From contig NZ_CP009961.1 of NCBI RefSeq assembly GCF_000993805.1, forward strand, positions 24,001 through 88,000: a stretch of DNA of 64,000 nt. The letters are read 5' to 3'. The position numbers and the translations under genes were made by a program. The stretch is from Thermofilum uzonense (GTDB taxonomy: Archaea > Thermoproteota > Thermoprotei > Thermofilales > Thermofilaceae). Shown piece by piece: positions 10,891 through 63,833 of the stretch. Positions within the stretch are counted from its first letter, which is position 1, and each line of letters starts with the position of its first letter. The notes under the pieces are model-generated. The model worked only from the letters and a program-made list of their open reading frames with translations, made no database searches and was not told where the DNA came from.

Positions 10891-11364
10891 TCACTTTAAA
10901 GGGATTTTTATCTCTAAAAGTAGAAGGGAACCTTCTTTCTCGATAACCCCCTCAAAATACCCTCCGTAACACTCTCTTAAGGTTTCAGCAATACGGGCAA
11001 AGTACTCCTGTCTCCACCCCTCGCTGGCTCTGATTTTTATCGTAATTCTGCGAAACCTTACTGCATCCTTGCACGTCTGCTTTAGAAGTTCCCTTATACC
11101 AGTTATTATGTCGCCTGGAAACTCTATGCTTCTTATAACTGCACGAATAGATAATAAGTTTCTGATAGGATACTGGCGAAAGAGCTTCCCGAGACTCTTT
11201 AAGTCTAGTGTTGTCTCAACGCAAAGCTTCCCGCTTGATAGAATACTTCCCCTAACCTTTGGATCACTTGGAAATAATAGGTCCATCACATCCCTCAATA
11301 CTGCTTTCTCATGTCCTTTTCTACATGCTATAATCAAGTTGCAATTTATTTCACTGTGCTCCAT
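10891..11364 (-). CDS. THUMP-domain-like RNA-binding protein
   Basis: A 157-residue protein resembling a free-standing THUMP domain, the RNA-binding module of tRNA-modifying enzymes. Supporting features are the opening NLIIACRKGHEKAVLRDVMDLLF, the VETTLDLKSLGKLFRQYPI strand-helix, and the closing KIRASEGWRQEYFARIAETLRECYGG..LLLEIKIPLK. No catalytic domain is attached. It overlaps the 3' end of the racemase gene by 19 bases on the same strand, so it is the last gene of a three-gene unit. The assignment is moderate; a specific tRNA target cannot be given. Confidence 0.6.
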   Translation of the reverse strand: MEHSEINCNLIIACRKGHEKAVLRDVMDLLFPSDPKVRGSILSSGKLCVETTLDLKSLGKLFRQYPIRNLLSIRAVIRSIEFPGDIITGIRELLKQTCKDAVRFRRITIKIRASEGWRQEYFARIAETLRECYGGYFEGVIEKEGSLLLLEIKIPLK

Positions 11365-61037: not shown

Positions 61038-61898
61038 TTGGATCCTAGCCTACTTCTCGAAGCCGCACGGAAGGCCGCCAGGCGCGGAGGAGAGGCAGCC
61101 GTCAAGGCGATAAGGGAAGGAGTGGGTTCCAGCGTCGTTGGTAGAGGAGAGGGAGGCGACTACTCTCTCAGAGGCGACGTCGAGTCCGAGAAAATGATAC
61201 TGGATTCTCTCTTAGAGGATCTAGGAACCATAAGGATAGTCAGCGAGGAAATGGGTGAAAGACGGCATAACGGTGAAGCCGAGTTAACAGCCATAATAGA
61301 CCCTATAGATGGGAGCCGAAACTATAAACGGGGTCTTCCATTCTTTGCGGTCTCGGTGGCCATAGCAAGGGGAGAAACCCTAGAGGACGTCGTTGCGGCA
61401 GCCATATACGCGCCCCTCCTAAACCTAGAGTTCACAGCCCTTAAAGGCAAAGGAGCATTCCTCAACGGCAACCTCATACACGTGACCACGCACACCACGC
61501 TAAAGGACGGCATAGTATTCGTGGGCTCCTCCCCAAAGGCCGTCTTCCTACCCCACACATACACCCTAAACCTTGTCTCAAGGGGAGCCATCGTTAGAAG
61601 CCTGGGTAGCGCGAGTCTAGAGCTGTCCTTTGTCGCCTCCGGCGGGGCAGACGCGTACATAGACTACTGGGGCACAATGAGGGTCATAGACATAGCCGCA
61701 GCATACCTTATCGCAAGAGAAGCCGGCGCCTGGGTAAAGACAAGAGGGTCCAAAAACGAGAAGGTAGCCCTATCCCTCCGAGAAAGACTCCTAATATTAG
61801 CCTCCTCCACACATCAACTCGGAGCCGAACTCCATGGGCTCTTCAAGGAAACCTTCGGCTTTAACCCCGAAGAGATACTCTTGGTGAAGCAGCCTTGA
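61038..61898 (+). CDS. Inositol monophosphatase / fructose-bisphosphatase family protein
   Basis: A 286-residue Mg2+-dependent, Li+-sensitive-type phosphatase. Metal ligands appear in IVSEEMGERR (glutamate pair), AIIDPIDGSRNY (two aspartates and the DGS motif) and YWGTMRVIDIAAAYLIAREAGAWV (the distal aspartate). In hyperthermophiles this family hydrolyses inositol-1-phosphate and often fructose-1,6-bisphosphate. Inositol phosphate is also a precursor of the polar lipid made by the CDP-alcohol transferase type found here. The start is TTG at 61038, 5 bases after the upstream stop; its own stop overlaps the TatD start. Confidence 0.9.
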   Translation: MDPSLLLEAARKAARRGGEAAVKAIREGVGSSVVGRGEGGDYSLRGDVESEKMILDSLLEDLGTIRIVSEEMGERRHNGEAELTAIIDPIDGSRNYKRGLPFFAVSVAIARGETLEDVVAAAIYAPLLNLEFTALKGKGAFLNGNLIHVTTHTTLKDGIVFVGSSPKAVFLPHTYTLNLVSRGAIVRSLGSASLELSFVASGGADAYIDYWGTMRVIDIAAAYLIAREAGAWVKTRGSKNEKVALSLRERLLILASSTHQLGAELHGLFKETFGFNPEEILLVKQP

Positions 61899-62629
61899 CG
61901 TCACTCGTAGACGCACACGTGCATCTCTACGAGTTCAACCGCAAGGAAATAGAGGATTTCATAAGCTCAAACATGCTACTAGTCGCAGTCGCCGAGGACT
62001 ACGACTCCTCTATACGAAACCTCGAGCTACGCGATGAATTCCCCGAGAACGTAAGGGCGTGCGTCGGCCTACATCCCTGGAATGTGAAACAGGAAGCCGA
62101 CGCTCTCAGACAACTAGAACAGATCAACGGGCTTCTCAAAGAAGCTGACTGCGTAGGCGAGGTAGGGCTAGACTTAAAGTTCACCCCAACCACATTCAAC
62201 CTCCAAAAGCAGGTATTCCAAGCCCTACTCGACATGGCTGTAAGCCACTCCCTACCACTAAACCTGCACGCCGCCGGCGCTTGGAGCCAAGTCTTCGAGA
62301 TGCTCGTCCAGAGAGGGGCCAAGAAGGCAATATTTCACTGGTACACGGGGCCGATTAGCTTACTACAGGAGATAACCGAGAAGGGCTTATACATAAGCAT
62401 CAATGCCTCTGCAAGCATCCAAGAAAAGTCTAAAAACATAGCCCGCAACACACCACTACACCTACTCCTCACGGAAAGCGACGGTCCATACTCATACAGA
62501 GGGCTCAACCTATCACCACTCCTAATACCAGGACTAGTAAAACTCATCTCAAACCTCAAGAGAATAGAGGAAGGAAAACTCACACAGGAAATCCACAAGA
62601 ATATCACAACTCTATTCCAGAAACACTAA
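61895..62629 (+). CDS. TatD-like metal-dependent hydrolase
   Basis: A 244-residue amidohydrolase-fold protein. It has the HxH pair in LVDAHVHLYEF, the glutamate in DCVGEVGLDLKF, histidines in LPLNLHAAGAW and AIFHWYTGP, and the aspartate in LLTESDGPYSY, matching the TatD nuclease family. Relatives degrade DNA or RNA ends. The start is TTG at 61895, within the stop of the phosphatase gene, so translation is coupled. It is the last gene of the three-gene operon. Confidence 0.9.
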   Translation: MTSLVDAHVHLYEFNRKEIEDFISSNMLLVAVAEDYDSSIRNLELRDEFPENVRACVGLHPWNVKQEADALRQLEQINGLLKEADCVGEVGLDLKFTPTTFNLQKQVFQALLDMAVSHSLPLNLHAAGAWSQVFEMLVQRGAKKAIFHWYTGPISLLQEITEKGLYISINASASIQEKSKNIARNTPLHLLLTESDGPYSYRGLNLSPLLIPGLVKLISNLKRIEEGKLTQEIHKNITTLFQKH

Positions 62630-62849
62630 ACCCTTTTCGTCAACACGTAACCAGCCCCCATCATTCCTTTAAACAGGCAAACTTCCCAAGCCTAACTTCA
62701 TTCCTGGTTTTCAAGGCATTATAATAATAACGGGTAACGGTCATATGCTGTTCTAGTTTAACTATTGACGTTTTTCCGGCTAGAGGTTCTCATGTGATGT
62801 GAAGATGGGAGCGTTAAGGTTATATTAGGGGTCCGTCTTGCATGAGCGT

Positions 62850-62897
62850 TGATGAGTGCTCCCGGCCCTGAGGGGTGAGGAAAACTTACCCTGCTGA
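62850..62897 (+). ncRNA. C/D box sRNA 1 of a convergent pair
   Basis: Boxes in order: C TGATGA (62850-62855), 12-nt guide GTGCTCCCGGCC, D' CTGA (62868-62871), 4-nt spacer GGGG, C' TGAGGA (62876-62881), 12-nt guide AAACTTACCCTG, D CTGA (62894-62897). Guide lengths and spacer match archaeal guide RNAs for 2'-O-methylation; C' has one deviation. A TATA box lies about 30 bases before box C. Real ends likely extend a few bases past the boxes. Targets not determined. Confidence 0.8.
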
Positions 62898-62901
62898 ATT
62901 T

Positions 62902-62949
62902 TCAGCCGGTTTGGTACTCATCACTTTTCAGAGTCGCAGATGCTCATCA
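62902..62949 (-). ncRNA. C/D box sRNA 2 of a convergent pair
   Basis: On the minus strand all four boxes are perfect: C TGATGA (62944-62949), 12-nt guide GCATCTGCGACT, D' CTGA (62928-62931), 4-nt spacer AAAG, C' TGATGA (62918-62923), 12-nt guide GTACCAAACCGG, D CTGA (62902-62905). Its D box and that of sRNA 1 form the two ends of one palindromic sequence (CTGAATTTTCAG), only 4 bases apart, so the genes meet tail to tail. TATA-like GATATAGTAC lies about 30 bases upstream. Targets not determined. Confidence 0.88.
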
Positions 62950-63002
62950 ACTCTGTATGAGAGTCTGATGCTGGTACTATATCTCTTTCTGTTAGGGTAG
63001 CG

Positions 63003-63833
63003 GTGGGTGTTGAGGCTGGCAAGAAATTTAACCCGCGCTGGATTACAAGACTTGTGAAAACGTTAGAGTACGGGAGTTATAAGCTCTTCCTTTACAAGGA
63101 GTTTAAGACACGTGAGGGTATCCTCGTCCAGGGGCTACCAGGCATAGGGCTCGTGGGGAAGATAGCGGTGGACTACCTCGTGAGTACCCTTAAGCTTGAG
63201 AAGGTCGCCGAGCTTATAGGTCCGGGACTACTTCTACCTGTCGGTAACGCAGGGGTATTCGTAGACCAGACAGGTCAAATGCAGCTTCCATCCTATAAGT
63301 TTTACTTGTTCCAGGGAGCCTCTAGAGACATAGTCTTCCTGACGAGCGAGGTTCAGCCAGCAGTCTGGGCCCAGTATGAGGTCGCGGAGGTGGTTCTAGA
63401 GTTCTTTAGGTCAGTGGGAGGCTCGTCCGTGATCAGCTTATGTGGCACTAGCTCGGAGACCCCTGAGATAGAGGTGGTCTATGCTGTAGCCAAGTCCATG
63501 AGACTGGGCGAGCTTGAGTCGCTCGGGCTGAGGAGGAGCATTGGGGGTACAATAACCGGGGCTTGCGGTCTCCTCCCAACGCTGGCATCTCTCAACGGGC
63601 TTGAGGGCATCGTCATAATGGGGAGTACTACTACACCCGAGCCTAACTTTGAGTCTTCAAGAGAAGTAATAAGGATAGTCTCAAAGCTTCTTGGGATAGA
63701 GATCAGCCTTGAAAGCCTAGACAAGATGATAGAGGAGGAGCGGGCAAAGAGACGTGAACTTGAGAGAGAGCTTAGCGGCGTTGAGGAGAAAGTGAGGGAG
63801 AAGAGCGAGGGCCTGCCGAGCTGGTATGTTTAA
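63003..63833 (+). CDS. PAC2-family (proteasome assembly chaperone-like) protein
   Basis: A 276-residue protein of the archaeal PAC2/COG1938-2047 group. It shows REGILVQGLPGIGLVGKIAVDYLVSTLKLEKVAELIGPGLLLP, then IVFLTSEVQPAVWAQYEVAEVVLEFFRSVGGSSVISLCGTSS and the GTITGACGLLPTLASLNGLEGIVIMGSTT segment, ending in a charged coiled coil (EEERAKRRELERELSGVEEKVREK). Relatives bind proteasome alpha subunits in archaea, but a direct role here is inference. The GTG start at 63003 lies about 25 bases after ACTATATC and is probably leaderless. Confidence 0.85.
   Translation: MGVEAGKKFNPRWITRLVKTLEYGSYKLFLYKEFKTREGILVQGLPGIGLVGKIAVDYLVSTLKLEKVAELIGPGLLLPVGNAGVFVDQTGQMQLPSYKFYLFQGASRDIVFLTSEVQPAVWAQYEVAEVVLEFFRSVGGSSVISLCGTSSETPEIEVVYAVAKSMRLGELESLGLRRSIGGTITGACGLLPTLASLNGLEGIVIMGSTTTPEPNFESSREVIRIVSKLLGIEISLESLDKMIEEERAKRRELERELSGVEEKVREKSEGLPSWYV

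Follow-up and report, generated by a model that had tools for sequence, protein, structure and literature searches.

Two convergent C/D box sRNA genes in Thermofilum uzonense as probable guides of 23S rRNA methylation

The closest described systems are the archaeal C/D box sRNAs, 489 of which were analysed in one study (PMC4644070). The two sites of a double guide usually lie within 100 nt of each other (PMC4644070; PMC7994747), the prediction of double-guide targets has tolerated G:U pairs (PMC4644070), and methylation hotspots occur in domain IV (helices 68, 69 and 71) as well as in the peptidyl transferase region (PMC4644070). Clustered or overlapping archaeal C/D genes commonly sit compactly beside or over other genes (Tripp et al. 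2017, as cited in PMC7994747), a placement that the locus described here shares; however, the arrangements treated in PMC7994747 are polycistronic clusters and overlaps with ORFs or tRNAs, and tail-to-tail sRNA pairs go unmentioned there. Likewise, tail-to-tail pairs are not described in the C/D sRNA literature that was searched, which excluded Tripp et al. 2017 and Lui et al. 2018 on gene organisation. The chromosome of Thermofilum uzonense 1807-2 comprises 1,611,988 bp, and its genome paper reported 50 RNA genes in all (PMC4673724).

The window examined in this study, a 64-kb stretch of DNA (bases 24001-88000 of the single 1,611,988-bp contig), carries a complete 49-nt C-guide-D'-C'-guide-D array on each strand, and the two arrays meet tail to tail between a gene for a TatD-related DNase and a PAC2-family gene (Table 1). 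Direct reading and pattern matching agree exactly with the first-pass annotation on this arrangement. The boxes of both arrays follow the order C, D', C', D, the C and D boxes are at consensus or near it, and all four guides are 12 nt long, within a range of 10-14 nt. The D'-C' spacer measures 3 nt in both sRNAs, and the 4 nt given in the first-pass annotation holds if C' is counted from TGA. Reading positions 62894-62905 also bore out that the D boxes form the two ends of a palindrome and stand 4 nt apart. In their boxes, guide length and spacer, as well as in 23S targets assigned by the D+5 rule with two sites within 100 nt, the T. uzonense sRNAs resemble archaeal C/D box sRNAs, and nothing essential sets them apart.

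Table 1. Coordinates of the two arrays, their guides and the flanking features (window positions; rRNA positions are those of the organism's own 23S)
Feature	Position	Strand	Details
TatD-related DNase gene, flank	61895..62629	+	Pfam PF01026, 1.6e-47
TATA-like TTATATTA	62820..62827	+	Upstream of left sRNA; putative, read by eye
Left C/D box sRNA	62849..62897	+	TTGATGA-GTGCTCCCGGCC-CTGA-GGG-GTGAGGA-AAACTTACCCTG-CTGA; C TTGATGA 62849-62855, D' guide 62856-62867, D' CTGA 62868-62871, C' GTGAGGA 62875-62881, D guide 62882-62893, D CTGA 62894-62897
Left D' guide GTGCTCCCGGCC	62856..62867	+	Predicted pairing with 23S 2059-2070, 11 contiguous-or-near pairs, one G:U
Left D guide AAACTTACCCTG	62882..62893	+	Predicted pairing with 23S 2103-2114, 9 contiguous Watson-Crick pairs
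D-D junction CTGAATTTTCAG	62894..62905		Both D boxes with the 4 nt between them, ATTT
Right C/D box sRNA	62902..62950	-	TTGATGA-GCATCTGCGACT-CTGA-AAA-GTGATGA-GTACCAAACCGG-CTGA (62950 down to 62902); C 62944-62950, D' guide 62932-62943, D' 62928-62931, C' 62918-62924, D guide 62906-62917, D 62902-62905
Right D guide GTACCAAACCGG	62906..62917	-	Predicted pairing with 23S 2640-2651, 11 contiguous Watson-Crick pairs
Right D' guide GCATCTGCGACT	62932..62943	-	Candidate pairing with 23S 2611-2622, weak: 8 contiguous pairs, 2 G:U
TATA-like GATATAG	62977..62983	-	Upstream of right sRNA; putative, read by eye
PAC2-family gene, flank	63003..63833	+	Pfam PF09754, 1.3e-32

A relaxed array pattern found only these two arrays in the whole window, whereas 60 order-2 Markov simulations averaged 0.0 matches, and a stricter pattern gave four matches in the whole genome and none in the reversed control; the layout is real and beyond chance. 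Outside the window, further C/D arrays were seen at 11213-11265 (-) and 188460-188508 (-), the latter with guides GAAGAGACGG and ACTAGAGG and with clear orthologues in four related genomes (G001, G003, G005 and G006). Rfam returned no match at or above the gathering score anywhere in the 64-kb window. RNA folding was unremarkable (z = -1.6 and 0.3), as is expected of C/D sRNAs. The genome encodes fibrillarin (2.5e-100) and two L7Ae-family proteins (2.8e-33 and 9.3e-20). Taken together, the box anatomy, the orthologues, the conserved complementarity to rRNA and the fibrillarin and L7Ae-family genes provide good support for both arrays as C/D box sRNA genes, most likely ones whose products guide methylation of 23S rRNA.

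For target prediction, the methylated nucleotide was taken as the one opposite guide position five, counted upstream from D or D', and the guides were compared with the organism's own 16S and 23S sequences. The D' guide of the left sRNA is predicted to direct methylation of 23S G2063 (E. coli G1906) and its D guide that of G2107 (E. coli G1950), with base 2 from the D box unpaired at the latter site. Taken alone and against both rRNAs, the left guides pair only moderately better than shuffled ones, 14 and 20 of 400 of which do as well, so that these targets rest on conservation and spacing. The D guide keeps 9-10 contiguous Watson-Crick pairs to one 23S site in five Thermofilum genomes, in each of which the D' site is exactly 44 nt away from it, and the local D' match (within 100 nt) is equalled by only 2-17 of 1000 shuffles across the same genomes. 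The left sRNA is well supported as a double guide whose two sites, both in domain IV, are separated by 44 nt. By E. coli numbering these sites would lie in helices 68-71, which places both within the domain IV hotspot. The left D' guide pairs equally well with 16S 628-639 (12 pairs, 2 of them G:U; site G632, E. coli G670), and since this match is also kept in relatives, 16S G632 is a possible second target.

The D guide of the right sRNA gives the clearest single prediction, 23S U2644 (E. coli U2491): only 2 of 400 shuffled guides reach an equal score, and 10-12 contiguous pairs to the same site are present in eight Thermofilaceae genomes. This site lies in domain V, near the hotspot of the peptidyl transferase region. 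The D' guide found no strong target in the 16S, 23S or tRNAs of its own genome. Its candidate site, 23S G2615, is 29 nt from U2644, and the best match within 100 nt of the D site is equalled by 18% of shuffles. The same stretch, 23S 2611-2622, is nevertheless the best local site for the right D' guides of most relatives: the match is strong only in G003 (11 contiguous pairs, one G:U; 2 of 1000 shuffles), followed by G012 (9 contiguous pairs; 21 of 1000), while it is weaker in G001, G005 and G006 (50-71 of 1000) and G004 shows no signal there in the local shuffle comparison. G2615 may therefore tentatively be regarded as a second site, which would make the right sRNA a double guide as well. An orphan D' guide would not be odd, given that 28% of Pyrobaculum guides are without a clear target (PMC7994747). 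The threshold of 9-10 contiguous pairs named in the first-pass annotation is reached by three of the four guides (9-11 pairs, all to 23S). Two other candidates for this guide, 23S 1921 and 2256, were dropped with scores no better than those of shuffles (327 of 400). For all four guides, the genome's 40 tRNA-like places offered no target better than the rRNA sites, and the best tRNA match of the right D' guide (L073) was discarded as lying on the antisense strand of that locus.

Among C/D genes in archaea, only some 20% have a TATA-like motif (PMC7994747). In T. uzonense, the left sRNA may have a promoter of its own in TTATATTA. The core of the right-hand TATA-like element, in the stretch 62976-63003, is palindromic (the TATA of ACTATATC), and the element sits about 23 nt ahead of the GTG with which the + strand PAC2 gene begins (63003); it could therefore also serve the PAC2 gene, as a shared bidirectional promoter.

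Orthologues of the left sRNA were found in four other Thermofilum genomes (G001, G004, G005 and G006), and those of the right sRNA across Thermofilaceae and possibly beyond. In the same four genomes the pair stands tail to tail between the tatD and PAC2 genes, with the identity of the flanks judged by reading the sequences. Compared to 4 nt in T. uzonense, however, the D boxes are 20 nt (G001), 43 nt (G004), 92 nt (G005) and 21 nt (G006) apart in these relatives, and therefore conservation extends to neither the 4-nt spacing nor the palindrome. Any close tail-to-tail placement produces such a palindrome (CTGA...TCAG).

There are several potential explanations for the pairing of the two genes. 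In all probability these are two independent and ordinary archaeal C/D box sRNA genes that happen to lie convergently side by side. It is very improbable that they form a coordinated unit, in which overlapping 3' ends or the palindrome between the D boxes would couple the transcription, 3' processing or abundance of both sRNAs. The gap of just 4 nt and the recurrence of close tail-to-tail arrays in the class (see below) speak for such coupling, but the wider gaps in the four Thermofilum relatives argue against it, as do the different 23S domains targeted by the two sRNAs and the finding that sRNA maturation in Sulfolobus acidocaldarius is indifferent to flanking sequence (PMC7994747); the proposal of a coordinated unit in the first-pass annotation is accordingly not supported. 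Less probable still is that only one strand holds a functional sRNA gene and that the other array is degenerate or fortuitous. In five genomes (G002, G003, G007, G012 and G016) the right sRNA was the only one detected at the locus, and in G001, G005 and G006 the left array departs from the consensus at D', C' and D; in T. uzonense, however, the boxes of both arrays are at or near consensus, and complementarity to 23S is kept by both left guides in five genomes and by the right D guide in eight.

For two independent genes, we infer transcription, RNP assembly and methylation in each case. The RNAs, each about 50-60 nt long, would assemble with L7Ae, Nop5 and fibrillarin at both C/D and C'/D' and pair through their guides with 23S rRNA. 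Fibrillarin would methylate the ribose facing guide position five, counted upstream from D or D'; the sites would be G2063 and G2107 for the left sRNA, and U2644 and perhaps G2615 for the right one. If mature RNAs end a few nt beyond D, the two 3' ends would meet or share an overlap of a few nt, and nothing suggests that this is relevant. The gap between the D boxes would then be a matter of packing rather than mechanism, and until shown otherwise the pairing is best treated as compact gene packing. T. uzonense would thus gain two guide RNA genes with named 23S sites beyond the 50 RNA genes of its genome paper (PMC4673724), and the predicted methylations are directly testable.

The first-pass annotation had also called so minimal a convergent pair unusual, whereas equally close or closer tail-to-tail pairs exist in other genera of the class. 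Of 81 genomes of the class, 15 contain a match to a strict tail-to-tail pattern with D boxes 0-30 nt apart, and none matches the reversed control; nine genomes of the genus g26, which have alike guides, were counted as one place, giving 15 places in total. The gap is at most 8 nt at 11 of these 15 places (p 0.0005 compared to a uniform gap), and the corresponding head-to-head pattern found 2 places compared to 15 tail to tail; the p-values (0.0005 and 0.001) are rough, as places were treated as independent yet seven come from one genome (G065). At several of the places both strands carry full arrays, and the gap can be as small as 0-3 nt. Close tail-to-tail C/D layout is thus recurrent in the class and not unique to T. 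uzonense. The arrays of G045, G049, G061, G065, G066, G069 and others resemble the T. uzonense pair in being convergent with D boxes 0-30 nt apart, but differ in their guides and, in several cases, in having smaller gaps. The excess over head-to-head places may only mean that divergent promoters need room; such an excess would be expected wherever promoters rule out head-to-head genes at close range, which counts against coordination. It is unlikely, but less so than a coordinated unit at this locus, that near-abutting tail-to-tail pairs are a favoured layout in the class and the T. uzonense pair one instance of it, perhaps in that a D box tail readily yields an sRNA gene on the opposite strand or that overlapping 3' ends are processed together. 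The recurring pairs raise a small question about the arrangement and origin of guide RNA genes in archaea.

The incomplete genome G065, from another family, has seven tail-to-tail C/D places (L098-L104), five of them with D boxes at most 8 nt apart; in G061 (L105), two tail-to-tail places have fused D boxes, CTGATCAG, and the layout is also present in G066 (L106). Nine genomes of g26 (L088-L096) share a tail-to-tail C/D pair whose guides are alike, with the cores TATCCTAA and TATCCTTG; the two guides of the pair are similar to each other, as if derived from an inverted duplication.
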